Below, one piece after another: positions 6,506 through 35,691 of a DNA stretch of 64,000 nucleotides (its first letter is position 1; every line of letters starts with the position of its first letter). The DNA is taken from contig BQMF02000373.1 of NCBI GenBank assembly GCA_027922465.2, positions 124,001 through 188,000 on the forward strand, in the 5' to 3' direction. The notes beneath the pieces were generated by a model. That model was not told the DNA's origin, searched no databases, and was given only the letters and a program-made list of their open reading frames with translations. The stretch is from Turritopsis dohrnii (Eukaryota > Cnidaria > Hydrozoa > Anthoathecata > Oceaniidae). Both the position numbers and the translations under genes were made by a program.

Positions 6506-6533
6506 ATGATGGAGGAGGAGGGGATGATGGACA
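6506..6533 (+). CDS. Exon 1 of the Death-helicase gene (start codon)
   Basis: The first of two adjacent ATGs at 6506 opens MMEEEGMMD and ends after one base of the next codon at a strong GTAAGT donor (phase 1). That phase fits the acceptor at 14079. The choice is supported by the copy at 51680-51713, which keeps the start, acidic/Met-rich peptide, phase and donor, with shared upstream sequence. The intron to exon 2 would be 7.5 kb and contains several transposons. The frame open past the donor to 6658 is taken to be read-through. Confidence 0.5.
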
Positions 6534-9500: not shown

Positions 9501-12500
9501 AATTTAAAGTCCGAAATTTGTTAATTTTTTTCAGTCCAATTTTCTACGCGTGCCGCCCAAAATAATTATTTTTTGCCACGCGTTAAATTAGAACCACTAC
9601 GGTACCTTATAACACGAACTTAACAGGTGGACTATTTAACGCGGTCACGAATTAACGCGGATGGACGAAGAGACTTCTAAAAGTGTGCATTAATTAACAT
9701 GGTTCAGGAACTGTAATTTTTAAATGGTATATAATTAACGTGGATTGTAATTTTTGTAGTTTTGACTCAGGATTAGTTGATTTATATGATTTGGAAGGTG
9801 TATTTTCGAATACCGAATGTTTTCAGAGTTACCAAAGTCGTATAGTCTGTTCACCACATTAATGGCCAAATCGTTAGTTTCAGTCTGATAAGCTTTCTCA
9901 TTAGCACATAAATTAAAAAATATAAAACATAACAAATGCGACCATAGTACAGTGTGTATCAAAATGTCTTATCCACCATATTTCAAGGCGTATATCTCAT
10001 TACATGTCTGATAAAATATTGGGAATTTTATATCACAAGAAAGAGCTTTTCATGCTCTATCCATTGATATAAAATGTTTGTCAAAATATTTGTTCTTCGA
10101 AAAGATATTGAAGAAAAACTCAACGATTTGGTTCATTAAATTCTTAAAAGTCAATTAACTCATTTTACAATGAAGGTCATTTGTAAACACAATAAAATAA
10201 ATTAAAAATAATCACACAGTAAAAATGTTTTATTTAACATTTTTAAGATTAGTTGTTTAGGGAAATTAATACGCAAAACTATACTTAAAATTTTCTAAAA
10301 GTTTCATCAGCACAACAGAAGAAAATCGCACCATTAAAAAGTCATTAGCATGTCAGTTAATTGACTTTTAAGAATTTAATGAGCCAAATCGTTGAGTTTT
10401 TCTTCAATATCTTTTCGAAGAACAAATATTTTAGCAAACATTTTATATTGATGGATAGAACATGAAAAGTTCTTTCTTGTGATATAAAATTCACAATATT
10501 TTATCAGACATGTAATGAGATATACGCCTTGAAAGTTGGTGGATAAGACATTTTGATACACACTGTATGTTTTAAAACGGGGGCTCATAAATTTGATGCA
10601 TTTATTATAGTCTATTCACTCATACAGTGTGTATCAAAATGTGTTATCCACCAACTTTCAAGGCGTATATCTCATTACATGTCTGATAAAATATTGTGAA
10701 TTTTTTATCAGAAGAAAGAGCATTTCATGCTCTATCCATTGATATAAGATGTTTGCCAAAATATTTGTTCTTCGAAAAAATATTGAAGAAAAACTCAACG
10801 ATTTGGCTCATTAAATTCTTAAAAGTCAATTAACTGACATGCTAATGACTTTTTAATTGTAGTTTTGTAGTTTTGTTTTCCTTTGTTTCCCTTGTTTCTC
10901 CAAATGCCCAACAAAAAATTGCTGTTTTACACCAGAGAATGCATTTTACTTTATTTTAAAATATCTCTTGAGACACTTTACGTAATTTAATTACCATAAG
11001 TGATTCAATCAAAAGCATGTTTTGATGTTTAAAAAATTGACAGAACCCCAGCTTTATAATTGCAAAAATATACAGTGTGTTTCGTAATGTTGGAAATGGA
11101 AATTTTAAATTTGTTTTTTAAATGAATATACCGAATTTCAAAATTATTTTTACATCAATGGAAAGCCATTTTCAAGCTCTTTCGGTTAGTATATTTTTGT
11201 GAAAAATGAAAAAGTGGTTTTTGAAAAAATAAGGAAAATGTCTTGGAATAATGTAATTAAATTTTTAATGGTCGATTAACATGTAGTTTAATTACGTCGT
11301 GCTTATTGTTTCAAAGCGCTAAATCCATACAAAGTTTTATTAATTTTATCTTTGCGCTGAGACCCCCAAATTGATATTTAAAAACATAAAAGTTAAACGT
11401 ATTTCGTGAACACACAGCTTAAATTTGTTTATTGTTTTCCAAATTGCTGTCATTGTTTCAAAAAATCTTTTCTTTTCACTCACATCTTAATCAACCATTA
11501 AAAATTAATTACATTTTTCCAAGACATTTTCATTATTTTTTCAAAAACCACTTTTTCATTTTTCACAAAAATATACTAGTCGAAAGAGCTTGAAAATTGC
11601 TTTCCATTGATGTAAAAATTATTTTCAAATTTGGTATATTCATTTAAAAAAGCAGCATTAAAATTTCCATTTCTAACATTACGAAACACACTGTTCACTG
11701 GCGTTGGCTCACTGCCAAATACGAGAATAGTCTTAGTACCCGGTCTGTCGCTGACAACCATCTACGACTATGCTCGTAGTTGCGTTCTGTTGCAAATCTG
11801 TCAACTACGAGTACGTATACTCGTAGTAGTAGAGGGACAATTTTAAGTAAGCTTGTATTTGATTGGGTTATTTAGTGAGAGGAAATGTTTTTGATTCTGT
11901 TCTGTAAAATATCAAGCATACTTCGAGTGTGGCGCAGCGAAAAGAAATTCCTCGCACAGTGGCAAGCTAAGAGTATAATTGTGGTATTTTTTATTTTATT
12001 TTTGAATCTTCCTCAGATAACTGTACTTGTCACAAAAATTACATAAAGGGTGAAATACACGATCATTTTAAAATGATAAATGACAAATGATAATTTTTTT
12101 AATCCTTTAAAAAATGATTAGAACATCTGTTTACACGATCATTTATGATTACAACATTTTTCTAAAAGTTCTATGGTAAAAGAGTAATTTTCAGTCATGA
12201 ACTCCGGTGGCAGCAAACGTAGTTGTTGCTGTTATGTCCAAATGACGAAAGAGGAAAAATGAAAGGCAGAAACGAAGATTTGGGTGAAACCTTGGCTTCA
12301 AAAACGAACTTCTTAGGAATTTATAACACGCTTGTGAGGAATTTCAAGCAAGAGATCATTATGAATATTCAGAGTTGTTAAGAATTTCGCCGGAAAATTT
12401 TGAAGGAATATGAAGTTTAATGAGTCCTTCTATCGAGAAACATTCCACAGTAATGCGCGATACTCTTTCCTCTTTGGTCCTTACGTTTGTAATTTGTGGA

Positions 12501-13170
12501 CGAAACATTCCACAAAAACTCCTGTTCCTGCCACAAATTAATAAATTGGACAGTTGATGCTAAGTTAACCAGCGACATGTTTATTTTATATGCAGACTCT
12601 ATCACTTTGTTTTTCTCCTTCATAATCTGCAAAAAAACTCATCGCGTGACTATACTAAAGTGAGTAAAACAATAGAACTGACGTAATTCAATAGAGAAAT
12701 TCCATCATTTTTTAAATGAAAACTCAAACATGTTTGAGTTATCATTTTTAAATGACAGTTGAAAATGACGGGTACTATTCGTCATTTTTTGAGCGTTTAC
12801 ACGATCAGTTTTCAATGATCATTTAAAAAATGTCATTTTAAAATGATCGTGTATTTTAGCCTTAATACTTTTATATATAAACAAGAGCCAGATGGCGCAA
12901 AACGGTAGCAGCAAGTTTACTTTTCACGCAAATGCTTTCGAAATTTTACTTTAAGTACTAAAAACTTCTTTACTGGATGTTTTCTAAGATATCTCACTGG
13001 TGGAAAACAGGCATTAACGATAAATTCGATGAAAATGATGAAAATGTTTAAATGTTCGATATGAAAAAGCTTCCAAATTACGAAGGCTGCGTTTCTTCAT
13101 TAGAATTTACATTGCGTTTTTGATAGAGTCCCGCAGACTCTAAATCGCAGACTAATTGCCATTTCGGCCG

Positions 13171-13210
<40 letters not shown>

Positions 13211-16200
13211 CCACGGGTGTTTTAATACGGTATTCGCTTTCGCTGCTACCGTAAATAGGTTATTACAAATTATTAGCTTTGCAGTATTTTAATGACCCAC
13301 AAAAAGCCATGGCAGTGAACGTGTTAAATGTAAATACACAACTGTTCTATGGTATTTTAGGCATCTACCATTTGACAAACAAATTTGCGGAAGTCCTAGT
13401 TTTCGGATAAGTTTTTACCTTTTATGTATCTGTCAGTTGGTACAAATTTAGCAACATTAACATGATTAGATTACTTCATAGGGAGAAAGTCCCCGGGAAA
13501 AAGACTGACTTGATTCTCGAAAGTTTATCCCACGGAAAATGGTCTAGGAAGCCGATTCGCGAAAGCTAAATTGGAAAAAAAAAACAGAAACCCACGATCA
13601 CAGGTTTTTTTTTTGACAGTACAGTCTAAATCAATAAATCTCTGTCTTATTTGTCAAAATTTCAAAAAGAAATTTAGAGAAAAAAATTGCACAAAAACCG
13701 AAAATAGTGAAGTTAATCCAACACGAAAGATCATTTTACCCGAAATAGATTTAGTCATTCATTACCGAAAGTAAATCCCTACAATTTCGTGGTTTTTTTC
13801 CTCGCGAAACTTTCTCCCAGCGAAACTTTCTCCCCGTAAAGTATGTAAACCATTGCTTGTTGAGTCTTTGTTTGAAGTTTTTTTCGATAAATATCATGGT
13901 ATTTCTTCATCAGAATGCTGGTATTATCAAGGTATATCATGTTTTTTTCTGCAATGAAATGAGAGCCATGGACTATTATCCATACTAACTGAATATTAAG
14001 ATGTTCTAAACACTTGATATATAGTTGATAAAAGATTGCCCAACTGCAATAGTTTAACGAATGTGAATTTTGTTTTAGACATTCGGATGCTAGCTTATCA
14101 TGCAGAGTTGGAATATTCTAGTGAATCTGCTGAAGGAAAACATCTCTATCAGAAGTTATTGCAGTATGATGAAGAAATGGTGAAAAGAAAATTTGCAACT
14201 TGTACTTGGTCTGATAGACCTTTCCTTGACTGTGTGATGCACATGCTAACTAATATGTCAGAAATGGAAAAAACAGATTTTATTGCTGTAATTCAGTCTA
14301 ATTGTTCCATTGAGCCTGAAAAATTGCAGTTTTATTCTTATACGGAAGGTTTGTTTATTTCACTTAAAAGATCATGTAACGTGAAGACATTGTAGAAAAG
14401 TCCCTCTGTAATAATTTTTGCTATTTACCTGTCATTTTGTCTGTCTTGGAAAGATGTGGATTAAGTCGAAAAAACGAAAGATTGACGATGTTCAACTGAA
14501 TGAATAAGAAGAAGAAAATGACTTTTTTGTTTGTTTGTTACATTTATTTAAATTCAATTACAGATAAAGTTGACTCTGATTTCGATATACACTCTGAATA
14601 AATCATTTTGTAACTTCTTCAGCTGTTATCAAAAATATGATTTTCGTTTATGCTATCTTTTAGCTTTGGTCGACAAAACGCGTTTTGTTGACTTTGTTTT
14701 TCTAGCTAAGATGCAAAAAACCTTTTCGAAGTCACTAAAAACGTTTTACTGTTAACAAGATTTTGTTGACTTTGAACAAGTCTCACTTCCAAGGACTCTA
14801 CTGTACAGATATACAGTTATTATACTTTATTTTTTAAATTATAATAAAGTTCTTTACAAAACCAATGAAAGTGTGCCTAAAATATGTAAGCAACACCCAT
14901 AGTGGGAAACGAAAAATTATTTTTTCTGAGAGTGACTTAAAAAGATACTCCTATAAATAACATGCTCAACTTGATTATTCAATTGACAAGATAACTTAGA
15001 TATATAAGGCCATTATTCACCAAATGTTCTGTTGCTAGGAGGAACGACCACCGTAGGTAAGGTAATTTTGAAATTTCTTTTGTTGTACGAATTCATATTG
15101 AAGAATATGAAAATGTAAATGTTACCAGTGGGACTCGTTTTCATGTTATTCAATGAAAATAAAAAAGCATCTTAGTTTCCAACTCCTTTTTTTAAGTTTT
15201 TATGGGAAAAAAATTAAGAGTTTTAAATTCAGACAAGTGGCAATTGGTTTAATGAGTGTGCAGACAAACACTCGCCATTTCGTGTTCGGGCTTGTGCGAG
15301 TGTGATTGCGCACCTTTGCTGGCCAGGCCTGTATGTGAAAAGTATAAGCACTTAGAATTCTAAGTTATGATCGGTTAAGTTTTCTTTGTTATCGTCCGTT
15401 TTTTTCAACGTAACGATCTTGTGATTGTCCGACTTAAAAACTTAATTTTAATCGCTGTCATGTTAACCGTTGATCAAACTGAAAGTATGGCATATATGCA
15501 CACACTGAAGAAAAGATAGAAATCAACAGTTTTAAAACTTCATTTGCTTATATCAAAGAAATTACAGAAAGACTGATTATAAAGTAAGTATGGAGCAATC
15601 TTATTAGAGTTAATTCATTTTTTATATTGTTAGGTGAAGGGAAAGAAGAACGTCTTTGTGATGCAGACGACCGTAATCTAATCTTTAAAATAATTTATGA
15701 AGAGGCTGCTGAGGAATGGAGATTGATTGGTCATTTCTTATTAGATTTTAATGTCATTCAAACCATCATCGCAGATTTTCCTGATAGCGTAAAAGAAAGA
15801 CTACAAACCATATTAGAAAAGTGGCACCAATCTGCAGCTCCGGAGAGAAAAACATGGTTGCATTTGAAATCAGTTCTGATTTTCTTGAAGAAAGAAAATT
15901 TAGTATCACTAGTTGAAAATTACCCGTTTCCAGCATTGCATCGAAATTGGCTGCGAGGTATGTTTTATGAAATCTATCAGGAAAATAAAAACATTACAGT
16001 TATTTAGTTACAACTTCTTGAAGTGTTTTGGCTAGTAGATGTTGAAAACACCGATCTTATTAATTCTCCATTTAGATATAGATTTAGATTTAGGTGATCA
16101 AATGTTCGCCTACGTCATAGACAAACGTTTCTCTGACAATCTGTCAGAAGGAAAGAAGTTTTGCTACAGGCTTTTCCAGAATAACATGGATGTTGGACGA

Positions 16201-19200
16201 AAATTTCAATTTCTTTCACAATATGACAGACCTGTTTTGGATTGTGTCATGTACATGATGACAAATTTTTCCAAAAAGAAAGAGATGTATGACATTATAA
16301 TGGAGGATCTTTCAATAAACCCAAAAGATGTGCAACATCCTCCATTTGATAGAAAAGGTTTGTTTTAAAATTCTTATCTTTTTGAAATGCTTTGTTTATA
16401 TTTAATTGAATTTTCGTTTTCTGGTTTAATGTAATTTAGAAATTTAAATCGGTATTACGTTCACTTAATGCTTGTTAACCAGAGCGTAGCGCAATTCGAA
16501 GGGAATCTTATCTAATGTTAGGGTAAACTCTGCACAACCACAACAGTTTTGTATGTAGTATGTAGTTTTTAGTTTCTCATACTTTTGTTTGTGTGTGTTC
16601 TCTATAACAAGTCTGCGGGTGTGTTCATGACGATAATTGTGTTCAAATTAAAAGTAACAAGAGCCAGATGGCGCAAAACGGTAGCAGCAAGCAGCATACT
16701 TTCGAAAGCACGACCAAAAATTGCCATAAAAAAAATAGTTAGTGTAAAGAGGTCTTATCGAATGTAAATGGGGTCTTATTAAGAAACGCCACCAGCAAAT
16801 AATTTTCAAGACAAAGAAATGTACATACATGAGTCGAATTTTTCAAGAAAAAAATTATAAGAACTTATGTGTAAAAAAACGCGTCTGCTTCGAAAAAAAT
16901 TAGAAACAATAACAAAGATTCCATGGACTCAAGAAACCTTCCCCAAAACTGTGATCTTTGAAATATTTAATGCAAAATGACGGTTTAGATAGCTGACAAA
17001 CTTTAGATGTAATTAAAAAGTTCGTTAAGGTTGAACTACCGACGATAAAATCGTACCTTACATCCAAATGTTAAGCATTTTTAGTAAAAGTAACTACTTA
17101 CTACTTTTAACTTAAAGCCTTACTACCAAAATATCTCTTTCTTCATGTAAGCGATGAAATATTAGAAAAATTTATTTTAGAATGTTTGCTGGATATAACC
17201 TTCGAATATTTTTAGACTGCGTTCCTTTGTGAGATTTCATATGATTTTTTGAACGAAATCTGATCGACTGTTAAGCGTAGGCTAAAAACTGCCGTTTCGG
17301 CCGGAGGAGTAGGAGTAGTAGTAGTAGTAGGAGTCCAAGGGTGTTTTAATACGGTATTCGCTTACGCTGCTACCGTAATAATTATCAATAACCACTAAAT
17401 ATTCATATGTTACAAAGTAACTGTAATTTATATTCTATATGTAAAAATTGGTAGAAAAGGTGCCTTGTGAAAAACCTAGAGAAGAGAAAAATGGTGTTGA
17501 AAAATTAAATCACAGAACAGAAAGTGCATCATTGTTGTAAGCACTATAAACTCTCCCTAATTCCCTAAACCTTAACCTTAAGAAAACGAAACAATATGTG
17601 CAGGTACCGTAAAATTTGTTGGAATTAGAATTTTGAGGTTCTAACTGTATGGCTGAACTTTGAAAAAATATACCAAAACATGTACGGGATCGCTAAGCGA
17701 CAACCAACCGTTATTGAGGTATCATCGCTCAAACATTTTAGAGATGTATCTGTTCGTCACCCCTTTGTCAATGTTGTAGACCATAAAAAAGACAGTTATT
17801 TTCTTAGAGATTCTAGAGATATTTTCCAAATTCGCGGGAAGAAATTTTCGCGGAAAAAATTTTCGCGGAATTTAATTTCGCGATTTTTGCCCCTAACCCC
17901 GAAATTAAATTCCGCGAAACACGCCAAAATTGCTCAATCGCGAAATTAAATTCCGAGAAAATTCGGTTTTAGTTTTATATGTTAAATAATAAAAGAAAAA
18001 ACGATTCATAACGCAAAAAAGGAGGCATTTTTTCTGTTAAGTATTTGTTTGAAAATCGAAAACCGCGAACTTTAATTCCGCGATACATGTTAAAATTGGT
18101 CAATCGCGAAATTAAATTCCGCGAAAATCGGCCATTTTTACCATTTCAACCGCAAAATTAAATTCCGCGAATATTTCTTCCCGCGAAAATTTCTTCCCTT
18201 AAGGTAACTTCACATCTAATTGAAGAGGCATTGCAATGGTTCCCCTGGTTTAAAGATCCACTTAAACAGACGTCATCTAGATCAAAATTTTTTCAGGTTT
18301 GCAATCAACATTAAAGCGCAGAACAGAAAAGTCGTTTTACTTGGAAGATCTGAAACCCAACAAATATAACAAATACGCGCTGTGCATCCACTTTTTTGAA
18401 TCTCTAAAATAAATTATATCGATTGGAGATGCAATGGTTCCCCGTGCTTAAAAAATCTAACTTCAATACGGAAAAAAAAGTTCCTCACCTCAAACATCTT
18501 TAATTAAAAAATCCCAGCTTCTCTGAGTGTGAGTGTTGGTTACAGGTAAGCACAGACAAACGTAGATAAAAATATAGTTCATTGCAGTCGCTTTGGAACT
18601 GAACTGCTGAAGTGAAAGTTGAGCGCAATCTATGTGTAAAATATAGACCCATAAATAGGTAAACACATTTAGCAAAACCTTGATCTTTATAAATAGATGA
18701 ATAAATACATTGCGAAAGTGCTGAAGAATTACCTTGACACTCTTTGCTTGTAACATTTTGTTTACAGAGGTTTTTGGTTAATTGTTACATCCATCCAGTC
18801 TTATCTATCAGGCATTATTGAAGTCAAAGGATGTCCTAATTGCAGGTAGTATGCTCATGTAGCAAACTTTGCCAAAACATTTACTACAGTTAATCTGCAG
18901 CACTTTGAACACTGCTTCTTCTCTGACATTAAAATTGATAAACTTCCGAATCCATCCACTTGCTGAGAGTTGCTTCAAATCACCTGCCATCAATCTATAC
19001 CGATACGATGAGTTCTGTTCCTATAGCTGCTGTCTCTACTGCTTTCCCAGCATGTCGATGCCAGGATTTGAGATCAATTATTTGGATCAGGTCCAGCGAT
19101 TATTTGCTTATCCGGGTGTGTGGGAGGTGTTTGCAGGTCATCAGCAACCAGTAATGTCAGCCTTAATGAAGTTCCGAATCTTTAAAAAAATCCAATTAAC

Positions 19201-22200: not shown

Positions 22201-25200
22201 TGCTGTTGCATTTTATCATTTAAAAAGCCTACCATCACGATGTAGTTTTGATGATATATCCTTCCATGCCACTTTCTTTTTGTGAGAGTCTGCATAGCAA
22301 CTGGCTCCAATCTGCCATAAACAAGGATATGCATAAACTTCCATGATTAAGGACTCCAGTAAATTTGCCTCGCTTTCCTTATTATTTCCTTTAATTATTT
22401 GTTTAATAAGCAGATTTTCTGATTCATTTGTACGGTCCGATTCTTCGTAGGTAAGTGCACCCCCAGGCAAATCCACCGCTTCCATGTTTTTAAAATTTTT
22501 CCTGACGAGGAAAAATACGTTGAGTAAGCAATTTCGTCCAAGTTTGATTGGCTAATAAAATTTATTCCGCACGAAGTTTTTTCGTTCGCTCAAGAAAGTC
22601 AAAATGATTTTGACTTTCAAGTGCGAACGAAAAAACTTCGAGCGGAAAGTGATCAACCAATCAGAATCAGCGGAATAATTCCGCTCGAAGTTTTTCCGCT
22701 AAAATTTGTTAAGTGGAAATCGGTTTGTTCTTGTTAGTTGCATTAAAAAATGTAAATGCAAAACAATGATGAATGAATGTAGCCGTTACTGCACTGTTTT
22801 TTTTGTTTTTTTAGATTTTAATGAAAACTTATTCAGCATGTTCAGGTGAAACCTTTATTCTTATGTAAATTTCATTATCAACCTGTAACGCATTTGACAA
22901 TATTCTATTTGAAATTATAGGAATAATGTTAGTTTCATGGAGAACGAAAGAAAGAATCGATACAGTGCGACAGTGTCTGCTATTGTTTCACAAAAATGGT
23001 CAATTATTCATTCATGTATAGAATGTCTCAAGGAAAAGAAAATGTTCATCAATAAAAAAAAAGTTTTAGAAGTGATCATGAAAGAAGTTAGTGATCATGT
23101 AGATTGGTATCAACAGCATGCCATTGCTGTTAATGTGTTGGAAAAAATCAAGGATTACAATGAAGTTGGATACCACAGCAAAGAACAATTGAAGTTGATA
23201 TTAACCGCTATCGCTAACACCTTCCATTTTTGTATCAAAATCCTTACGAAAGAAGAGATGACTAATTTGTTTCGTCTTGAAGATGAAAATCATATTATAT
23301 ATCCAAGCCGTGTCCAAATATCAAGAGGTGTCATTGAAATGTGTTTGATGGAAGAGGGCCATATGCAACCATTGCAAAATGTAAAAGGTAAGGCTTAATT
23401 AATTTTTATTTTCCTCAGTATCTTAGTTTAATATCCTATGTCCTATCCTTCTTTGACAAAGAATAACTGAGTCATGCTGACTAGGCAGTTATAAATTAAT
23501 TAGGACTAGTGTATTCCAAAATCAGTATTCCCATGAAAACTTTCATTCATTATGGAAACGTTTTCTAGCAACATTGACTTGATGCCTTACCTCATACTCA
23601 TTATTTCCATTTGTTGGTATGATAATCAAAGTTGCATTGTCAATTCTAATGGGTTTTACTTTCACGATATTGTTGCTCAAATTCATTATTAAGAAGAGGA
23701 AATCACAAACAATCAACAATGATGGCCATCATGGAACCTCGACCATTACAATTGGGTTTTTCCACCCATACTAATGCTTAATGTTTAGTTTATGGTCAAG
23801 GCAGTTTTAAATCTCAAAATTTTATGCCACCAATAATAGAAGTCATAGTTTTTTGCAAAATGAGTAAAATGTGTCTTCTTGCGGAAAATCAGTATTATAT
23901 CTATTATGAATCTTGTATATACTTATTCCCACAAAAATGTCCAACTTTGGAAAGTTTTGGAGAGTTAGGAAATCCATATGTGCTGTGTTTTCTGTAATGG
24001 AGAACTGGTGAATATGAAGACTACTGATTCACTAGTTTAACAAGAACAACAACATTTTTCATTTTTCATTTCAGTGGTAGATTCGCAGGATGGCATTGTT
24101 CTGAACGATTCCATTATTGTATTCTCCTTGGAAAATGATTGTTGCATATTTGAAGTTCCCACAAAATTTGCTCAACATAGTGATTCAGTGGTTTTAGAAT
24201 CAATCACCAAAAACCATGATGGCAGCAATAACATAACAAGAGAAATAATTGACTTTGAGCAGACAGAGAGAGTAGAGACAGACAGATATAATGGTTATGA
24301 TTATATTCTTATGAAAGATTTAAACAAAACAAAACTTTATAGATGTGTTTTGGAATATCAAGATGAAAGTGGTATCATCTATAAACTATCTTCAAAAGAA
24401 GTTTCAACAAATGGTAAGTGAAAATTCCTATATAAAAGGAATTATAGGCCTGTTTCAATAAAGCCATTTCATAAAAGTATAAAGTTCTTGTGCAAGTTAC
24501 ATTTTTACATAAACTTTACTTCAAGTTTGCAAACTGTCTGTCTATGATAAAGTATTCTCAGAAAAATAATTTAGATTAAAAAAAACAACAAGTAATACAA
24601 AAGATAACCAAAATCAAAAAAATCAAAATAAGGGATAAAAGAAGGGAACCAAAGAAGTAAAACAACAAAAGACAGAGATTAAGCAGAAGATAAATTTTTC
24701 ATATAGAAACATAATTTATTCATGGATAATATTTTTTAACTTCAGTAGCTCGATGGCTTTTTCAAAAGTATCTGGAATACATAGCAAATTTTCTTCATAT
24801 TTGATTTATTTGCTTACAGATAAACCTGTCCACAGTCATAAATTATCCGGAGGTCACATCATTATTTCTCACAAAAGTGCTCAAGAAATGTCTGGCGTCC
24901 TTCCTTCACATAGTGAATCAATGGAATTCCAAAGCAATTTCCTTTGTAACCGTTCAACAGACTACACTGAGCACATGCTGTCATCTCAATGGATAGAACA
25001 GTGTGACAACTATTTTCAATGTAATTTCATTAAAAACAATAAAGACTATTTTGAGGAATGGACAATTTTTCCAAACATTTTCATGAATACTTCCCAAAAT
25101 GCAACAAAAGATGTGGCCGAACGCATGAGAGATGCATTATCAAAGTCAAATAATGCATCGAAAGATCCTGTTGGAGGTGTGATAATTATGGAGTATGACG

Positions 25201-28200
25201 GTCAGGAGCACAAAAACTTTATGTTGAAACGTCAAGTGAATGAAGGAGCTCTACAGTTCTCAAATCGCGTCATGGTTTTCCATCAAAAGATGGGTGTCAT
25301 TTTGAACATCAGAGTAGCTGAAGGTGAAAGTGTAAAGGACATTCCTAATGAATTTGCCAACTGCTCCAAAGATATAGAGGATCTTACAATCATTCTGGAT
25401 TTTCTGACAGTTCAAGGGAAAATAAAATCTTCGATAACTGTGACCACCTTTGTTGCTGCACCCAACATTCATTCCAACAAATTAAAAACTCGCATTTTTG
25501 AAAATAAACGATCAGTAATTTGTGATGGTTGTAAATCAAGTGTTATATCAAAGGATCAACTGAGTGACATGAAACAATGGCTTGAAACTGAACTTCCTAG
25601 AATAATAAAGAACAAACCACAAATGACTTGTTCACAGAAGGACTTTAAGCGTGTGATTGCACAAATAACCGGTTTCATTGCTAACACATCAATCCGAGTT
25701 GCTAAACATTCTGATAATATCCATGAGCAGCTCATATATCTACAAGCAAATGATGAACAAATTCAGGCGGTTGTTGATCCTCGGAAACATAAAGTCATCA
25801 AAGCAGCTTTTGGTTGTGGAAAGACTGTTGTTGGCACTTTGCAATCTGAATTCTTGGCCCGAATTGCGGAGGAACCCACAACAATATATTATATCAGCTT
25901 CGATCCATACAGTTTAATTGACTATTACATTGATGAACACCTGAAAAGTTTGAAACTGCAGAATGTTGAGAGTGGATTAGTCAAATTACAAATTACCAAT
26001 GTGTCTGTAGTTGCTGCTGAAATGAAAGAGATGAGCATTCCCGGTGTATCAGAAATATTAGGACACATTGAAGATCAACAAAAGAAAACTGGCAGAATAT
26101 CCCACATATGCATTGATGAACTTAACGCATCTGTAATGAGTGAATCGGAAGTTACAGTCATTAACAAAAAACTTTCTTTAATGAAAGATAACTTCATAAC
26201 ACTAATTTTTCAGCCTTTTCAGCAGGAACGATATGATGTTAGTGGAAAAAAGAAAACCAAAAAGAAAACTCTCGTTTCCAAAACACACGAGACTGAGCTT
26301 AAGATGTCTTGTTTGCAATTAAAAAAAAACATGCGAAATTCTGCGAAGATTTCCAAACTGTTGGAGGTAAATTGTAATTTCTGATAACGTAATTTTTTGC
26401 AAAATAAATCTTTTCGTCTCCGTAGTAACTGTATTTTCCGTATCCTTAAATGCTGTTTTTATTCAAAAATTTTTTTCCAATATATGATTTGTATCTGAAA
26501 GGTTGCAAAAGATGTTATCACTGGTGAAGAAACAGAATATTATCCTGCTGTCAATCTACCTGCAATAGATGAAAACATGTCTAGTCAGATGCAACCAACA
26601 AGTACAGAGCTCCAACCTAGGAATAGTCCTGATCAAGATGAAACACAAACATCAACTGAAAACATTTCACAAGGTATTTCAAAGTCATCTGAAAGTCTAC
26701 CTATCCCTTTGAAGAGTCAGGAACATGTTCTGAAGCAGATGAGTGTCTTTGATACTGAGCGTTCAAGCAAAGGTTTAGCAATAAAATTCTGTTTTGAAAA
26801 ATCAACAGAGGTAGGTCACTCACATCAAGGCAAAGTACCAGAATTAATGTATGTACCTTCTACTAAAGAAATTGGGAAGTATTTACCTCGTCACCGTCTT
26901 CGATCATTATCGAAAGAGCAGCGGAGAATTTTAAAGATGGCTCTTGCTTTCATAAGTATGGAAGCTGGTGATACAATTATCTGCCATGACGAAGAAGAAC
27001 TGCTTTTGATACAAAGTGCTTTAAAGATTGTTGGAAAAGATTTTATCACTTATGCACATTGTCTTGGCAACAAAAATAAAATTCCAAGTTTTCAAGAAAA
27101 AAGGGAGGTAGCAGAAGCCATTGAGGGAAAAAGCAAGATTGTACTTGCAGATAGCAATGGATGTCGTGGTTATCAAATTCGTAAAGTTGTCATTCCATTA
27201 TCAAGCACTGAGCAATTTCATCGTCACACTATACTAGAAAGTGCTGCTCGGGCAACATCTAACATCTTGTTTATAGTAATCGACTGTTCCAGTTTGTCTC
27301 ATCCATTTCGTCTGTCTCATAAAAGCAAGAAGTCCATGTTCAGAAAAGTCATTGAAAAATGGAATTCGTTAAAAATGATTAAACTCACTAAACCAGTAAT
27401 CGACAATTTACCAATAGCAGAATTTTATGATCGATTACCTGCTGTTGAAATGCTGACGCAGCTAACTGAACAAAAGTGAGCTTGATTTATTGATTTACCT
27501 TTCTACTTTTGAATTCTGGAGGTCTGGATACTATTCTTTGATAACTGTTGACATTATAATCCTTAACTTTTTTTATATTGGTGATTATACCTTAATTCAT
27601 TTTCTTGTTTCAGAATGCCATTCAAGAAGCCAACCTTCGATGGTATGTAAACCATTTGAATTTCTAAAAAGACAACACCAATAAGTACAAATCTTTAAAT
27701 TTCATTGACTTACTCATAAAAATTGATTTTTAAAAAAAATAAACGTGGCAGTTTTAAAGAGAGGATATTCAGGAAATAAAGTTTAGATATCTGTGAGATT
27801 CTGGCCTTTCTGAAATGCCATGTACTCACACGGGTGAAACATGATATGTAAACAAGTAGGGGTTATATAATGAGAGGCGAAACTCTGATAGTTTCAGGCT
27901 CGGAGGAATTCCGGATTCAAGAAGCAGCTTCAGTCTTCAGCAATTTCTGGTTCAAACTGAGAACAAAATTAATCTGAGTGCTAGAACAATATTGAAGAAT
28001 ATATCTCACTTTCCTTTAATGTTTATCATGTTAAAAGTGGTTCAGTTTACAGCTAAGGTTATGACTGAGATTTCTGGTTTTGGAGATTTATTTTAATTCG
28101 GTATGATTAGTTGTGGGTAATATCACTTGTGAATCTGATTTTGGATTTTTTAACCTACTTAGTATTTACAACCTTCTTTTGATGCATTTCATTGGTTCAA

Positions 28201-31200
28201 CAACCTTCTTTTGATGCATTTCATTGGTTCAACAATTTTGCGATTTGTGAATGCTTAAGAGCATTTTCGACACCTATGTTTGGTGAAAACATGCTTAAGC
28301 AAAAACGAAATTATACAGTCTTTAAGTAACAAGGCAACGTTTTTTAGCTTTTTCATTTGCCTACGCCATCATTCTCATTAACGAGCTCCCCCTCCCCCAT
28401 AATCAAACACTCTTTCCTCCCCCCCCTTTGACAATACTCAAGTTGAAATTTACATCCGTTTCTAATATGACCAAGTAAAGAAGAATTGACACTCCTAATG
28501 ACTCTCTTAGCTTGCGTGACGCGCTTCAGAATTCAGCTATGAATGATTTTTCCAAAAATTACTCAAACATGTTCTAATAAATCAATTGAAAGTATGATTT
28601 TTGTACGTTGCAATATTTCTCTTGTGCTGATTCTCTCCGCACTCCCTTTCATAAGCGTGGTCATTTTTAAGCTCGGCCTCAGTGTTCACAGGAAAAGTTT
28701 TCTATAACATGCTTGACATTTGCATTATAATACGATAAGTTTATAGGCTTATGCAATACTTGATCAGTTTTATTTGTATATGTTAAAGTCCAACATAAAA
28801 ACTTTGATCTACGTACTTCGTAGATCAGGCAACTTTTTACGGCAATGGTACGAAAATACCTTACGTATGTACGCCGTATGTATAGTGTTGTATGTTTATC
28901 GCGTGTTTCTCAAAGGTCGTGCTATACGAAAATTGGTTAGATAGCCGTTGGTTTTGTTTTTTTCTATCTTTCAATCAAACTTCAATTTTCATTTTTATCA
29001 AAGTTAGTTATGTTATGTTTTCATATGATTTGAGCCATGTATATTTCCGAGCTCTTATAAAACGTACTATCATTTTCAAAAATCTGCATTTTGATCATTC
29101 ACAATCTATGCACTCGTTTTTGTCATGTGATGTGAACCATGTATATTTCGAACAGTTTAACTAAGACATGTTACATTTTCGAATTTTCGTATTGTGGGAA
29201 AAGTGGGAAAAGAAAATTAGTTTTCTATTGTTTCTGTCGTGTTATTTGAACCATGTATATTTCGAACACTTTTACTCAGGCTTGTCACATTTTCGAATTT
29301 TCGTATTGTGTGAAAAGTTCTATTTCTAGTTCTATTTTTTCCCGCCAAGTATTCTTCGATTCCTTTATCTTCTTGACGTTTGAAGTGCGTGGAGCTCTGT
29401 GCTGTTGAATTTTTAAAAATCAGTAGAAGTATTTAATATCTATCAATCATGAGTATTTCTGCTGATCACGAAAGAAATTAACGTATTCTACAACGAGGTA
29501 AAAATATCATTTATGGATTGGATATAGATTTGAGAAAACACCAACGCTATAAAACACTAACGAGATTTACGATCATTTTGGTTATTCGTTTAATCTTGCC
29601 GACGATCAGGCAGATATTTTATAGAAACCTTGTAATATTGTATCTATATATTAATAGCCGATTCTCTGTCTGTTTGTTTGTTTGTTTGTTTGTTTGTCAA
29701 TATTTCTCTCTTCGGGGCAGCGAATTTCGCAGAGTAGATTTGCTTGTAGATTTGTAGATTTGGGAAAGAGTGTTTTGTTTTTTAATCTTTTTGACACAGG
29801 AATATGTTTCTATCAAGTATGATACATTTTTGGAAAAAAAAAAAAAAAATGGTAGGTGAGCTGCGAGAGAAATTATTTCTTATTTTTTACGCGACGTCAG
29901 TGTGAAGCCATTCCATTGAGACCCAAATAGAACGCGACGTTTAGGGAAAATTATCTCGGTAACCAATAGGGATAACTGACGTTTTTTGGGGTCCGCCATA
30001 CAGGCGATGGGGTGATGAAAAATTTGGGTCTAATTTTTTTTGGGGGACGGGTCTGTGACGTCATCAAAACTTTTGATCGACGATATCTCCGTAACGGTTG
30101 GTCGTAGCGAAACGATCCCATACATTTTTTTGATCAGTTTTTCGAGCTCTACAACATGGGCACACTTATGATTGCAAATTCCTTAATTTTATTTTCGTGA
30201 ACTCAACGCAGGCTGAACATGGGCGGCGAGCGACGCCACCTTGGCGGCTAGTCTATATATTAATAGCCGATTCTCTGTTTGTTTGTTTGTCACGCAAAAT
30301 GGTAGATTGAGTTGTGAGCGAGATTGTTTTTTTATTTGTGCGACGTCAGTGCAAAGAAAAATACATTGCAACCCCAATCGAACGTGACTTTTGGCTGGTG
30401 AACCAATAGGGATAACGTTTTTTTTGTTATAATTATTATCAATTTTATATTCCAAGGACTACAGTTTGAAAACAATACATAAACTAGATACAAAAAAACC
30501 AACTGATTAAACATTTTGGACAAGCAGCGGTGGCATAACATGGTAGCGTGTTCGGTTTGCCAGTGTTCTTTCATAACGCTTGCCTGACTGTCTGAGATGG
30601 GTGAACCTTTTTTTCGAGCAATAAAAATGTTTAAAAACCGAAGCTTTCCTTGCCCGACTCAGACGGGTGAAAAAAGTGTGTCATGAAACAATTTTTTTTT
30701 GCTTTTGTTTTAATAATATAATTTCTTTTAATTGTTATGTACTTCTGATCAAACATGTCTTTTATTCAATTCATTCATTTTTAGAACGTGCATTTTGTTC
30801 TCCTCCCGTGTGATCTTTTTAAGAGAAACCATTTCTCCCCCTACTTTTGATAGCACCCATGTTAAAGCGCGTAAAACAAAAGCTAAAGTTTTTTCTCTCT
30901 ACGTTTTGAGTGTATTGTTAAACTGATTAAATCGATTGATTTTAAAATGTAAATAAATAGCACATAATGAAATGCAGATTTTTTGGAACCATTGTCAAAT
31001 ACCAATTTGATTGGCTAAAAATCGTAAATAAAGATCACGTGAAGTTCACGTTCGGAATGCTGACACTTTAAATGTGACCGCGACAATGAACGGCTAAGTT
31101 AAGAACATGCAAAGAGTTGAAACACCAGGAGCGTATTTGTCTTCATGTGCAACCAAGCTTTATTAAGCAATAAAGCCAGCAGCAAAGGAAGTTAAAACAG

Positions 31201-32597
31201 TCCAGGAGCCGTTAGAATTGAACCTCAGTTCTTCCATTATATGTTCCTCGCTTATCGCTGGTTTTAAGTGCAATAATTTGGAGCAGGGATTTTTATTCGG
31301 GCTCCAAAATTACAAAAACTTGGAACACTGGTTGCTTGACTGGGAGAGTTAAGATGCAAAACTGACTGCACACCAGAGGTTGAGATTTCGAATCTGCCTC
31401 TGCCTGAACACAGGTTGTTTATAAGGAAATATGACGTCTATTGGGGTCTGCGGTGTGACACAGAGCAGGTGGACATGGGCGGCTAGTTTGTATCAGTTCT
31501 ACTTTTGGTGGCAATATTAATGTAGAATATTTTCGGATCAAAAATAGTTAGAAATTACAAAGATTCGTTTCGCTTTAAAATTTGTTTACCATTAGTTAGA
31601 GCTTGAAAAGCTGGTTAAAATGATATATAGAACCGTATGTCTGTTACGAACAGTTCAAGAGATACGCGTCATCGCGTTTTGCTATGACGTCTTAGGTGGT
31701 GTGTGGAATAGATGGAAATTATTAAGATTCATTTTGCTTGACAGTTTGTTTACCATCAGTTAGAGCTTGCAAAGCTGGTTAAAATGATATATAGAACCAT
31801 ATATCTGTGACGAACAGTTCAAGAGATACGCCTCATTGCTATTTGCTATGACGTCATAGGTGGTTCCACAACCACCCACTCCATTTGCGTCAGTTATTTT
31901 GATTAGTTTAGAAGATAATCCCACAAAATTAACATTGTCATTTCACAAAATTTCTGAAAATTCTTTATTATACTTTTTTTATTTAGTTTTACTTTCTTTT
32001 TATTTGTTGTAATTATTAATTATTAGTTGTTTAGAATTTCTTTCCATTTAAAATCTATTTTTATTTCGATTATTCTTCATTCATTTTATCATTTATTTTT
32101 CATTTATTTTAGATCTTCATGATCTCATCGAACGTGATGACCTGAAATCCATCGAAAACATCTTCACGGTCGATCCATCGATCGTGAAGATGAAGAGTGA
32201 TCGTTTTGCTGAATCCACGCTTTTAATGAGGGCTTCTGCTGAAAACAAACTCTCGATTGCTCGATTATTAATGCACAGAGGTGCGGAGATAGAAGCGACG
32301 AACAAATATGGATATACAGCACTCCATTATGCTGCACTTAGTAATTCTACCGATACACTCACCTTTTTAATAAACTCCGCACCTCATCTTATCAACAATC
32401 AAGATAACTCCAACAAAACACCACTTCACCTCGCATCACTGTTTGGTTATTTAAAAAGTGTTGAAACGCTCATCCGCCATGGAGCAGCTCGTCATATTAA
32501 AGATGATGAAGGACGAACTGCATACGATGTGGCGTGTGAGCGTGAAGGTGACGATGAAAAGAAGAAAAGAATAAGGGAGTTTCTTCTTCAACACTAA
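6506..32597 (+). CDS. Death-domain / Ig-like / SF1 helicase / ankyrin protein (12 coding exons)
   Basis: Proposed join: 6506-6533, 14079-14348, 15634-15957, 16076-16357, 21075-21386, 22815-22845, 22921-23387, 24075-24413, 24820-26366, 26502-27475, 27614-27642, 32113-32597. All junctions are GT/AG and in frame, giving 5088 nt and 1695 residues plus stop. Predicted order: module A (about 10-99), Death domain (100-207), A again (208-301), Death domain (302-405), helical region (406-571), Ig-like (572-684), SF1 helicase core (about 990-1455), ankyrin repeats (about 1535-1695). No signal peptide or membrane segment is seen, so it is probably intracellular. Death folds usually build signalling oligomers, and SF1 cores bind NTP and nucleic acid. 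An immune-sensor role is an inference. The core from 14079 to 27475 is firm; the first exon and the ankyrin link are less certain. An alternative end is the stop at 27477 or 27648. Confidence 0.6.
6540..8350. other. First intron: unrecognised sequence
   Basis: No exon-like segment with good splice sites was found. Short minus-strand frames at 7285-7506, 7513-7737 and 7903-8112 have no domain features. Confidence 0.4.
8350..9480 (+). pseudogene. Decayed non-LTR retrotransposon reverse transcriptase
   Basis: Across shifting frames there are remnants typical of LINE reverse transcriptases. A 'DTVDHEIL' block lies near 8688, a 'GPVLGPLVFLLY' block near 8836-8871, and a 'FADDTH' box (the RT YxDD/FADD motif) near 8900-8925. 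These are followed by the usual 'FDIHRNWKV' thumb-like segment near 9118 and 'CRANGAFQALF' near 9168. Several stops and frame shifts interrupt it, so it is dead. It lies in the sense orientation within the large first intron of the Death-helicase gene. Confidence 0.75.
9949..10567. mobile_element. Palindromic MITE, TACAGTGTG family
   Basis: The left arm starting TACAGTGTGTATCAAAATG at 9949 is matched in reverse complement by the right arm ending at 10567, with about 200 bp of high similarity per arm. No transposase is encoded: the minus ORF at 10376-10588 is just the arm sequence read backwards. It belongs to a non-autonomous DNA transposon family seen several times in this window. Confidence 0.8.
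10623..10852 (+). mobile_element. Solo arm of the same TACAGTGTG MITE
   Basis: A third copy of the arm, in the orientation of the left arm at 9949, begins at TACAGTGTG and runs to about 10852. It has no inverted partner. The local order is arm, inverted arm, arm. It is a half-element left by deletion or by a tandem insertion. Confidence 0.75.
11071..11695. mobile_element. Palindromic MITE, related TACAGTGTG family
   Basis: It starts TACAGTGTGTTTCGTAATG at 11071 and ends with the reverse complement at about 11695. It shares the terminal nonamer with the 9949 element but its interior is different. The layout is parallel: an ATCAATGGAAAG-like block and a GTCGATTAACATG-like block at comparable positions. 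No coding capacity. Confidence 0.75.
12047..12862. mobile_element. PIF/Harbinger-derived element with TAA target duplication
   Basis: The termini are AGGGTGAAATACACGATCAT (12047) and its near reverse complement ending at 12862. They are flanked by TAA on both sides (12044-12046 and 12863-12865), matching the 3-bp TWA target duplication of PIF/Harbinger transposons. Inside, about 12250-12420 on the + strand keeps remnants like WVKPWLQKRTSL and a 'LVRNFKQE' block. These resemble the start of Harbinger/HARBI1 nuclease proteins, with stops and frame shifts. It is therefore an internally deleted, non-autonomous derivative. Confidence 0.75.
12881..13256 (+). repeat. Interspersed repeat with (TAG)n core
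   Basis: It begins ACAAGAGCCAGATGGCGCAA and ends GCTGCTACCGTAA, with a (TAG)n microsatellite at about 13170-13210. A longer copy lies at 16657-17377 and a 3' end fragment at about 60247-60288. The ends carry inverted CGGTAGCAGC / GCTGCTACCG blocks. The start has some tRNA A-box flavour, so it may be a SINE or a short TIR element; I cannot decide. Confidence 0.65.
13260..14078. other. Intronic stretch, nothing recognised
   Basis: No exon or repeat of known type. The lysine/asparagine-rich frame at 13571-13774 has no domain signal. The 3' end of this stretch is the acceptor of exon 2 (TTTTAG at 14073-14078). Confidence 0.4.
14079..14348 (+). CDS. Exon 2: unknown helical module A, copy 1
   Basis: A 270-nt phase 1-1 exon encoding about 90 residues. 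It is clearly homologous to the exon at 16076-16357. Shared signature: EGK, then L.Q, then RKF, then DRPxLDCVMxMxTNxS (about residues 55-80 of the module). The predicted content is amphipathic helices without cysteine pairs or catalytic motifs. I do not recognise it as CARD, DED or Pyrin, although its size and its place before a Death domain suggest another small adaptor fold. It reads in frame from exon 1 and into exon 3. Confidence 0.7.
14349..15633. other. Intron 2, nothing recognised
   Basis: Between a GTTTGT donor at 14349 and a TATTGTTAG acceptor at 15633. The frame at 14570-14755 has no support. Confidence 0.5.
15634..15957 (+). CDS. Exon 3: Death-domain-like module, copy 1
   Basis: A 324-nt phase 1-1 exon of about 108 residues. 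It has the spacing of a Death domain: IFKIIYEEAAEEWRLIGHFL (helices 1-2, with the conserved Trp), then an 'IQTIIADFPDSVKERL' helix 3-4 region, then 'ILEKWHQ' with a second Trp, and 'WLHLKSVLIFLKKENLV' as helices 5-6. This follows the Death-domain consensus of W..L...L, I..I, ..ML..W and W..L..AL. Its homologue is 21075-21386. Death domains mediate homotypic assembly in apoptosis and NF-kB-type signalling. Confidence 0.75.
16076..16357 (+). CDS. Exon 4: unknown helical module A, copy 2
   Basis: A 282-nt phase 1-1 exon, about 94 residues, starting after TTTAG and ending before GTTTGT. It shares with exon 2 the EGK start, the RKF block and the DRPVLDCVMYMMTN block. The A-B-A-B order with the Death exons shows that a two-exon unit was duplicated together. 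Confidence 0.7.
16657..17377 (+). repeat. Second copy of the ACAAGAGCCAGATGG repeat
   Basis: Same ends as 12881-13256 but about twice the length, with the (TAG)n region interrupted at about 17305-17330. It lies in the 4.7 kb intron between exons 4 and 5. Confidence 0.65.
17830..18200. mobile_element. Palindromic MITE with repeated TTTCGCG motifs
   Basis: Both ends carry TTCGCGGGAAGAAATTTTCG-like sequence in opposite orientation. The interior has many inverted copies of 'aattaaattccgcgaa'. No coding capacity. Similar but weaker sequence occurs near 58520-58640 and 59150-59280. Confidence 0.65.
18210..21074. other. Intron 4 remainder: decayed sequence, no gene assigned
   Basis: Several open frames between 18808 and 20355 (both strands, up to 118 codons) have no motif I can name. 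They may be remnants of a mobile-element ORF. No exon with phase-1 splice sites was found here. The region ends in the acceptor of exon 5 at 21074. Confidence 0.35.
21075..21386 (+). CDS. Exon 5: Death-domain-like module, copy 2
   Basis: A 312-nt phase 1-1 exon, about 104 residues, homologous to exon 3. Features: 'FETICEDACEDWRYISHFL', then 'IQSICVDNPNDVKLRL', then 'ILERWFEST', then 'RSWLYLRSVLIYLNKHDLV'. Both Trp positions and the final helix are kept. It was chosen for its strong TATTTTTAG acceptor and its match to copy 1. Confidence 0.75.
22029..22727. mobile_element. Palindromic element with MADF-like ORF (Harbinger-type derivative)
   Basis: The terminal inverted repeats begin CGATTTCCACTTAACAAATT and end in its reverse complement, with CTTCGAGCGGAA repeated inside. 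A minus-strand ORF (22216-22485) contains LIMEVYAYPCLW followed by 'KKKVAWKDISSKL', the pattern of a MADF / Myb-SANT-like DNA-binding domain. Such a domain is the accessory protein of PIF/Harbinger elements. No clean 3-bp target duplication is visible. It sits in the intron between exons 5 and 6. Confidence 0.6.
22815..22845 (+). CDS. Exon 6: 31-nt micro-exon
   Basis: Between a pyrimidine tract ending TTTTTTAG and a GTGAAA donor. It reads D-FNENLFSMF-R. It enters in phase 1 and leaves in phase 2. This exactly converts the phase-1 end of exon 5 to the frame required by exon 7, which otherwise cannot be joined. That frame fit is the main evidence. Confidence 0.6.
22921..23387 (+). CDS. Exon 7: helical region of unknown fold
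   Basis: A 467-nt exon, about 155 residues, from the acceptor AATTATAG to the donor GTAAGG (phase 2 in, phase 1 out). Content is mostly amphipathic helix, e.g. 'IIHSCIECLKEKKMFINKKK' and 'LKLILTAIANTFHFCIKI'. No motif was recognised. An internal ATG at 22937 could start a shorter protein if the upstream exons are skipped. Confidence 0.65.
23388..24074. other. Intron 7, nothing recognised
   Basis: AT-rich, between GTAAGG and TTCATTTCAG. No internal repeat or exon was seen. Confidence 0.5.
24075..24413 (+). CDS. Exon 8: Ig-like beta-sandwich candidate
   Basis: A 339-nt phase 1-1 exon, about 113 residues. It alternates short hydrophobic strands: 'DSIIVFSLENDCCIFEVP', then 'DSVVLESITKN', then a closing 'DYILMKDLNKTKLYRCVLEY'. 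The last segment has the [L/V]xYxCxV flavour of Ig F strands, and CCIF could be the B strand. Symmetric phase-1 borders are typical of Ig exons. Placed after Death domains, it recalls the Death-Ig layout of MALT1. The fold is my inference and needs a profile or structure check. Confidence 0.5.
24820..26366 (+). CDS. Exon 9: SF1 helicase motifs Q, I-IV with N-terminal NERD-like region
   Basis: A 1547-nt exon (residues about 685-1200), entered after TTGCTTACAG and left at GTAAAT in phase 0. Helicase signatures in order: Q-like 'NDEQIQAVV' (Gln about 998); Walker A AAFGCGKT (1013-1020, Lys 1019); Walker B ICIDEL (Asp 1117, Glu 1118); 'FQPFQQERYD' at the motif III place; 'LKKNMRNSAKISKLLE' as motif IV (Arg about 1190). 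This is the UvrD-like SF1A order. Residues about 720-980, with 'GVIIMEYDG' and a following 'FVAAPN' strand, resemble a NERD nuclease-like region that often precedes SF1 cores, but the usual E-x-K is not clear. Confidence 0.8.
26502..27475 (+). CDS. Exon 10: SF1 helicase C-terminal part, motifs V and VI
   Basis: It starts after CTGAAAG in phase 0. A Ser/Gln/Pro-rich linker (about 1226-1270) precedes the second RecA-like domain. 'IVLADSNGCRGYQIRKVVI' (about 1416) fits motif V, the RG.E/Q segment of UvrD_C-type domains. 'ESAARATSNILFIVI' (Arg about 1450) fits motif VI, the usual TRA. The exon may end at the GTGAGC donor at 27476; if unspliced, it stops at TGA 27477-27479. Confidence 0.75.
27614..27642 (+). 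CDS. Exon 11: 29-nt micro-exon
   Basis: After TTTCTTGTTTCAG it reads K-MPFKKPTFD and reaches GTATGT after one base of the next codon. Its phase 2 in / phase 1 out connects exon 10 to the phase-1 ankyrin exon at 32113. If the donor is not used, translation stops three codons later at TAA 27648-27650. Confidence 0.5.
27738..27743 (+). terminator. Possible alternative polyadenylation signal AATAAA
   Basis: AATAAA lies about 90 bases after the in-frame TAA at 27648-27650. It would give a short isoform without ankyrin repeats, ending in the last coding intron. Another AATAAA-like run is near 27776. Confidence 0.35.
27744..29000. other. Last coding intron, left part
   Basis: It holds an exact tandem duplication of about 33 bp at about 28168-28232 and a hairpin GATCTACG...CGTAGATC at about 28806-28826. 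No exon was recognised. Confidence 0.5.
29010..29320 (+). repeat. Tandem repeat, about three units of 104-116 bp
   Basis: The block 'ccatgtatatttc' recurs at about 29035, 29140 and 29257, each preceded by a GTGATTTGA-like segment. The last two copies are followed by 'attttcgaattttcgtattg'. It lies upstream of the Helitron-like pair in the same intron. Confidence 0.7.
29643..30251 (+). mobile_element. Helitron-like element 1 (TC...CTAG)
   Basis: It starts TCTATATATTAATAGCCGAT followed by (TTTG)n, and ends in a GC-rich hairpin region GCCACC..GGCGGC then CTAG. A TC start and a 3' hairpin plus CTRR end are Helitron/Helentron hallmarks. No Rep/helicase protein is encoded, so it is non-autonomous. 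It is directly followed by a second element with the same start. Confidence 0.65.
30252..31486 (+). mobile_element. Helitron-like element 2, head-to-tail with element 1
   Basis: It begins TCTATATATTAATAGCCGAT immediately after the CTAG of element 1 and ends GGACATGGGCGGCTAG at 31486. It shares the CGACGTCAGTG and 'ccaatagggataac' blocks with element 1. It contains a tRNA-like SINE head near 30526-30560 (GCGGTGGCATAAC, as at 43897). Non-autonomous. Confidence 0.65.
31549..31868 (+). repeat. Two-unit tandem repeat, about 165 bp
   Basis: The unit contains 'gtttaccattagttagagc', 'ggttaaaatgatatatagaa' and 'cagttcaagagatacgc', and ends near GCTATGACGTC. The second copy starts about 167 bases later with few changes. 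Confidence 0.75.
32113..32597 (+). CDS. Exon 12: ankyrin-repeat C-terminus with stop
   Basis: It begins after TTTATTTTAG in phase 1 with DLHDLIERDDLKSIENIF and ends at TAA. About four ankyrin repeats follow the TPLH-type consensus: 'STLLMRASAENKLSIARLLM', 'GYTALHYAALSNSTDTLTFL', 'KTPLHLASLFGYLKSVETLI' and 'GRTAYDVACE'. Ankyrin repeats bind other proteins. No upstream exon of a separate gene was found, and the phase fits exon 11, so I assign it to the Death-helicase gene. It could instead be the end of an unseen gene starting in 27.7-32.1 kb. Confidence 0.75.
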
Positions 32598-34143: not shown

Positions 34144-34197
34144 CAACTTCGTGCCCAAACTCCAAATACAGTTGATGCAATTATCTTACAGAAGAAA

Positions 34198-35208: not shown

Positions 35209-35630
35209 CACGGTCGTTCAACGCTAGCCGAAACTCGGAAATTAATTATGCACATGCGCAGTTCAACACGTCTTGCATAATGCTCTTGGCGACATAATTT
35301 AGCGCTGGCCATATAGACCCCAGTGACTCAAAACACTTCTAAATCGAGATTACAGGTTTTATACCTAGTAACATTTAATTTTAGTAGTTGAAAGAATGAC
35401 CAAGGATAAACAAACTATAAGTTTTTTTAATGTTTTTGAATCAGGATCATCTCTAAACAAGCGAACATTGCTAAGGAGAAGATTCTGAAAAACTGGTTCA
35501 TTTCAGAACCGATACAATCGAATTTTCCCAGCAAAACCAAAACAAGCCCTTGGATCCTTATAGTCTTGCCTTCTAAAAACCTATATCATCTTTTCCAATC
35601 ATTTTTTTAACAAACAGTTTCAGACGCATT

Positions 35631-35632
<2 letters not shown>

Positions 35633-35662
<30 letters not shown>
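35633..35662 (+). repeat. Poly(G) run of about 30 bases
   Basis: An uninterrupted G tract just upstream of the transposon's first ORF. Such a run is rare in AT-rich DNA, could form G-quadruplex structure, and is a likely site of sequencing length error. Confidence 0.8.
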
Positions 35663-35663
<1 letters not shown>

Positions 35664-35691
35664 ACTCATCGCCTTCCTCTCAAGATCTATC

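Follow-up and report, generated by a model that had tools for sequence, protein, structure and literature searches.

A predicted Turritopsis dohrnii gene that may join a duplicated Death-domain unit to a UvrD-like P-loop NTPase and ankyrin repeats

The window analysed here, a stretch of 64,000 nt from Turritopsis dohrnii, contains introns as well as retroelements and has a GC content of 33.5% (31-35% per 4-kb step). On its plus strand, 12 GT/AG-bounded segments between positions 6506 and 32597 join into one frame of 5088 nt. This model, put forward in an earlier note on the same DNA, was reproduced to the base and yields 1695 amino acids with a single, terminal stop and none within the 1695 codons. 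The proposed first exon E1 (6506-6533, 28 nt, phase 0 to 1, MMEEEGMMD) is followed by four phase 1-1 exons, namely the open-frame A1 (14079-14348) and A2 (16076-16357), encoding two copies of a domain here termed A, and, after each of them, an exon for a Death-like domain, D1 (15634-15957) and D2 (21075-21386). Further downstream lie the micro-exon E6 (22815-22845, 31 nt, phase 1 to 2), the exon E7 (22921-23387, 467 nt open, 155 amino acids), a proposed Ig-like exon (24075-24413, phase 1-1, open frame), the exons H1 (24820-26366, 1547 nt open) and H2 (26502-27475, 974 nt open) for the N-terminal part and the proposed second lobe of a P-loop NTPase, a second micro-exon S11 (27614-27642, 29 nt, phase 2 to 1) and the ANK exon (32113-32597), which carries ankyrin repeats and the stop codon.

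Judged by base composition, each of the nine long exons has a probability between 1e-3 and 6e-18 of being open by chance (about 7e-6 for E7, 6e-18 for H1 and 1.5e-11 for H2), values that apply per exon and are uncorrected for the many possible places in the window. When codon scores were trained on the remaining exons in each case, the assumed frame came out ahead of the five others in all nine long exons, with a score of 9.1 for the proposed Ig-like exon and slight margins for D1 (0.9) and ANK (2.2). For the three tiny exons (28, 31 and 29 nt) the chance of openness is about one half, so that it provides no evidence for E1, E6 or S11; the codon scores of E6 (-1.9) and S11 (0.4) are equalled or exceeded in another frame and do not single out the assumed one. 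Splice sites were scored with generic matrices drawn from general knowledge rather than trained on the source genome, and scores are weak for A1 (0.7/0.7), A2 (0.9/0.7), the E7 acceptor (0.2) and the H2 acceptor (-0.4). The speculative E1, defined by an ATG and a GT donor scoring 2.4, is separated from A1, which lies downstream, by 7.5 kb containing palindromic repeats; it is a guess, and translation might equally start at a methionine in A1.

The exon preceding each Death-like exon turned out to be a member of a second duplicated pair, the A domain, which is absent from the earlier note. A1 and A2 are 37% identical (tblastn E 1.8e-13) and D1 and D2 46%, and since the four phase 1-1 exons run in the order A-D-A-D, the duplicated unit is probably A plus Death. 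Within the window, no more copies of A or D were found with E below 0.3. For D1/D2, 69% of the synonymous but 34% of the nonsynonymous sites differ in the coding frame (dS 1.93, dN 0.46), whereas the two wrong frames show about equal difference rates for synonymous and nonsynonymous sites (0.43/0.39 and 0.40/0.41). Synonymous sites of A1/A2 are saturated at a dN of 0.61, the wrong-frame control being confined to the D pair. These values speak for long-standing purifying selection on the predicted duplicated N-terminus.

The A domain gave no convincing profile match, including none to DED, CARD or Death. An AlphaFold2 (AF2) model of A2, aligned with A1, is helical with low confidence (pLDDT 48.6), and a fold search with this low-confidence model returned no match. 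Homology of A to the Death domain appears unlikely, and was rejected, at an A-to-D hhalign probability of 0.8%. We regard the duplicated A as a candidate for a new family of Death-linked domains.

A likely identity of the D domains emerges from the pair. D1 alone reaches 15.4 bits (E 0.021) against Pfam Death (PF00531), below the cut-off of 22.6, and D2 alone has no Pfam match. A joint profile made from the two-sequence D1/D2 alignment and searched against the PDB matches the Death domains of FADD with E 0.0015-0.0039; among the eleven PDB sequences that score below E 0.01, ten come from FADD constructs, which represent one protein type and hence are not independent matches. The best 60 of 114 PDB sequences with E up to 10 comprise 10 FADD, 1 ankyrin-3 and 49 G-alpha constructs. 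The top row is a tandem miniGq, which sums two stretches with E 0.68 each, and the remaining G-alpha rows have E 0.065 or worse over residues 36-92; the G-alpha rows were regarded as chance, partial matches. With D1 alone and E up to 1, no FADD was found in the PDB and miniGq was the best match (0.63), while D2 alone also retrieved miniGq first (0.017), followed by FADD (E 0.18) and ankyrin-3 (E 0.2), indicating that single copies are weak queries. The two Death-like domains proposed earlier hold as a duplicated pair whose joint profile finds FADD, while the single copies stay below cut-offs; D1 and D2 are likely Death domains, as judged from their sequences.

For the NTPase, the evidence concentrates in the C-terminal part of H1, where a Q-motif-like NDEQIQAV (25749-25772) is followed after 10 amino acids by the Walker A motif AAFGCGKT (25803-25826) and, further on, by the candidate Walker B ICIDEL (26106-26123), all on the plus strand. 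The bare Walker A pattern means little by itself, as it occurs in 503 of 20,000 H1 shuffles and a second copy is present at residue 1404, in H2. Against a profile of 15 UvrD/Rep/HelD-type reference sequences of SF1A, this part of H1 scored 41.5 over Q/Walker A in hhalign, the best of 60 shuffles reaching 21.5; moreover, an HMM of the Q/Walker A segment, built from 7 of the 15 references, had H1's score matched by 1 of 2000 shuffles. The PADLOC profile GajB (GajB/UvrD) matches a fragment of H1 with E 0.0019 and gives no match with the whole exon, and no match to the SF1 profiles of Pfam was obtained. At sequence level, H1 contains a Walker A motif with SF1-like surroundings, and the predicted NTPase, with its SF1/UvrD-like N-terminus, is probably a divergent SF1-like P-loop protein.

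Helicase motifs Q and I-VI had been described in order. By eye, ICIDEL, FQPFQQ, LKKNMRNSAKI (close to where H1 meets H2), GCRGYQ and SAARATSN follow the SF1 motif order and resemble degenerate SF1 motifs; the motif III position, also by eye, lacks the usual GD. A pattern similar to ICIDEL occurs in 490 of 20,000 shuffles of the H1 tail, and the motif II profile, although aligning at ICIDEL, is equalled by 547 of 2000 shuffles. The motif IV profile aligns away from the proposed site (201 of 2000 shuffles as high) and the V-VI profile outside it (7 of 200 shuffles as high with HMMER, 5 of 100 with hhalign); H2 from residue 91 on, compared with the whole SF1 profile, is matched by 28 of 60 shuffles. 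Hence Q and Walker A are retained from the proposed series, while II, IV and V-VI gained no profile support, and we infer that a helicase fold may extend beyond the Q/Walker A part. An AF2 model of H1 alone reached a pLDDT of 33.3 and was set aside; the N-terminus of H1 may have a NERD-nuclease-like look.

Ankyrin repeats in the last exon, as claimed previously, are borne out by an Ank_2 match of 114.6 bits (E 3.1e-33, cut-off 27.3) on the ORF enclosing ANK. The claimed Ig-like module gained no support, its exon having no match in Pfam or PDB; what it shows is a 1-1 phase and a Y-x-C pattern seen by eye. E7 likewise has no match in either collection. Schlafens are characterised by an AlbA-like core, and no such core appeared among the Pfam matches of the nine long exons, which also include no TRADD-N, although a divergent copy of the latter could escape. 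Pfam gave no NACHT/NB-ARC match. NCBIfam matches and the Pfam matches DUF3576 (best E 0.0008), DUF1647, DUF7758, EFR3_ARM and DUF1803 were set aside, all being below cut-offs.

Two predicted micro-exon bridges would hold the model together, E6 joining the Death half to the NTPase half and S11 leading on to the ankyrin exon. Direct splicing from D2 (phase 1) to E7 (phase 2) or from H2 (phase 2) to ANK (phase 1) is forbidden by phase, as would also be expected of two or three adjacent genes, i.e., an [A-Death]x2 adaptor, an NTPase translated from an ATG in E7 (22937) and an ankyrin protein whose translation would start at an ATG in S11 (27615). Such a division, which we consider rather unlikely, would agree with the stops met just past D2 (21431-21433) and H2 (TGA at 27477-27479) if these are read unspliced, and with AATAAA sequences at 21991, 22178, 22554 and 27738, the last lying 259 nt after the H2 stop. 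It is opposed by the fit of E6 to both phase and splice signals and by the rarity of such candidates: with a threshold of 8.4, chosen after the 8.5 of S11 had been seen, E6 (9.3) is the only open, phase-compatible candidate in the D2-E7 interval scoring at least 8.4 (the next reaching 6.5), and 36.7 kb of control sequence contained none on either strand. Much of the D2-E7 distance is moreover accounted for by a 691-nt element with inverted ends. In the H2-ANK interval, two candidates score at least 8.4, namely S11 (8.5) and the lysine-rich 29800-29855 (10.9); S11 is one of two candidates scoring at least 6 in 4.6 kb, and the control count for S11-like candidates is 2 in 36.7 kb on two strands, one being 29800-29855 itself. 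The H2-S11 intron would measure 138 nt, close to the 135 nt of the H1-H2 intron, and the 135 nt from the H2 stop to the S11 ATG would be a short boundary between genes at a locus where introns reach kilobases. The rarity of E6 and the short H2-S11 intron favour one gene, with the predicted Death-NTPase join firmer than the ankyrin join, and we infer that a single transcript could run over all segments.

Alternatively, one locus could give rise to several products, i.e., the full-length receptor, a short [A-Death]x2 form in which the intron following D2 stays unspliced, and an NTPase protein terminated by the TGA behind H2, of which the two shorter ones could serve as regulators. The short in-frame extensions to the stops at 21433 and 27479 and the AATAAA at 27738 would suit this improbable option, yet any intron should contain such stops and the proposal derives purely from sequence. 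Least credible, with a very low probability, is a decaying or transposon-mediated chimera that is no working gene. The repeat-rich introns with palindromic repeats at 9948-10860 and 11072-11694 and the element at 22033-22723, the reverse transcriptase at 33257-34180 just downstream and the lack of relatives in the sequence searches described below would be compatible with such an origin; conversely, 1695 codons without an internal stop, the constraint on the D pair, an A pair with saturated synonymous sites and the confinement of the mobile elements to introns or to positions outside the gene argue against it.

With moderate confidence, we prefer one animal gene for a putative intracellular signalling protein composed of [A-Death]x2, a linker (E7 and the possible Ig-like exon), a P-loop NTPase that is SF1/UvrD-like at its N-terminus, and ankyrin repeats. 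A protein that carries Death-type domains, a P-loop NTPase and ankyrin repeats would have a reasonable sensor/adaptor anatomy, by analogy with the related systems described below most likely arranged as a sensor (ankyrin, NTPase), a switch (NTP state) and an oligomerising Death array. The ankyrin and NTPase part could bind a ligand, either nucleic acid or a protein derived from an invader or from damage, whereupon ATP binding or turnover would alter its shape and free or cluster the N-terminal Death array. The array could then nucleate an assembly with other Death-fold adaptors and thereby trigger a defence or cell-death response, and with two Death domains in each chain a small number of molecules could suffice to seed this assembly. 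It is doubtful, but conceivable, that the protein represents a new class of animal intracellular receptors. In these, an SF1-type P-loop NTPase would take the place of a NACHT or DExD/H-box core and gate the tandem array, made up of Death domains paired with a new helical domain, while ankyrin repeats would act as sensor. If there is one transcript, the switches believed to govern Death-domain assemblies would gain an SF1-like NTPase, and the gene may offer a genomic example of new sensors built through the joining of phase-1 exons in animals without adaptive immunity.

Several known systems share parts of this anatomy. In FADD, a DED precedes the Death domain, and here, too, the likely Death domain (profile E 0.0015-0.0039) is preceded by a second domain; this A domain, however, has no DED match, and the two-domain unit occurs twice and is joined to a predicted NTPase. 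The Q motif and Walker A are shared with SF1A helicases such as UvrD, Rep, HelD and GajB; in the comparison with the 15 reference sequences, motifs II, IV and V-VI gained no support, and the motif III position, by eye, lacks GD. STAND/NACHT NLRs follow a comparable working plan of signalling domain, P-loop switch and repeat sensor, whereas the NTPase here is SF1-like at its N-terminus and has no NACHT/NB-ARC match in Pfam. RIG-I-like receptors similarly combine signalling Death-fold domains, in their case CARDs, with a nucleic-acid NTPase, which is a DExD/H-box helicase with no ankyrin repeats named in that source, as opposed to an SF1-like NTPase with ankyrin repeats (PMC8260672).

A close published parallel to the Death-helicase combination is provided by lineage-specific animal proteins in which Death-superfamily domains and TRADD-N are fused to Mov10, DDX60, RLRs, ankyrins and others, the helicase fusions (Mov10, DDX60, RLR) occurring in cnidarians and brachiopods; retrotransposition was proposed as a source of these fusions, and an oyster set carries Ig repeats (PMC8195603). 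According to that work, the N-terminal unit holds 1-3 Death-superfamily domains and the variable part can be ankyrin repeats, so that the present protein resembles them in its probable N-terminal Death-superfamily unit, the ankyrin part and a putative nucleic-acid enzyme as partner. It departs from them in having no TRADD-N match, a duplicated A-Death unit and an NTPase with a UvrD-like N-terminus in place of Mov10, DDX60 or RLR. Further studies describe related combinations, including HEPN joined to Death, ankyrin or NACHT domains (PMC3710099), Death and other domains combined with NACHT in cnidarians (PMC8260672) and NACHT combined with ankyrin in Acropora (PMC7642931). The earlier idea of a sensor in which a helicase gates Death signalling has a reasonable anatomy and published Death-like/helicase fusions in its favour, while only Q/Walker A is statistically SF1-like and no Schlafen match was found in the nine long exons.

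In open-access text, no title or abstract start among the matches listed names Death together with a UvrD-like NTPase and ankyrin, in agreement with the earlier remark that no named family has this domain order. The exact order was not found described there, and comparable proteins in which Death-like units are fused to nucleic-acid helicases have already been published (PMC8195603). Searches of a protein collection of uncertain animal coverage gave no relatives: of 6159 candidates obtained with residues 400-1534 of the full protein (E up to 0.001), 6825 with the ORF of H1 (E limit 1) and 21 with the alignment of D1 and D2 (E limit 1), none fell within the limit. Scanning viral contigs with the C-terminal 269 amino acids of H1 gave 218 stretches and no relatives.

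The window is also rich in mobile elements. The two palindromic, MITE-like repeats (9948-10860 and 11072-11694) are both located in intron 1, which is long, and the second repeat carries ACAGTGTGT ends. Perfectly inverted ends of 45 nt bound the 691-nt element in the D2-E6 intron (22033-22723); on its minus strand it carries an ORF with a MADF match (23.8 bits, cut-off 22), and it may be of the PIF/Harbinger type. The reverse transcriptase ORF (33257-34180, minus strand; RVT_1 31.4 bits, cut-off 29.6) lies on the opposite strand, 660 nt past the stop of the ankyrin exon. Beyond it, a separate plus-strand exon set at 35611-39523 gave 54.9 bits for DUF1280 (cut-off 25), 20.6 for a RAG1 importin-binding-like region (cut-off 23.3) and 17.6 for a RING-like one (cut-off 21); the DUF1280 match would fit an N-RAG-TP-like reading of this set. 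The set is flanked by an inverted repeat of 36 nt with 72% complementarity (arms 35242-35277 and 40359-40394), the longest of 55 pairs found there and possibly due to chance. It is perhaps an N-RAG-TP-like transposon (PMC8355894) or a domesticated form. Finally, the stretches 12890-13250 and 16665-17375 look alike by eye, both showing GTA runs and, close to one end, GGTAGCAGCAA; they are perhaps copies of one mobile element.
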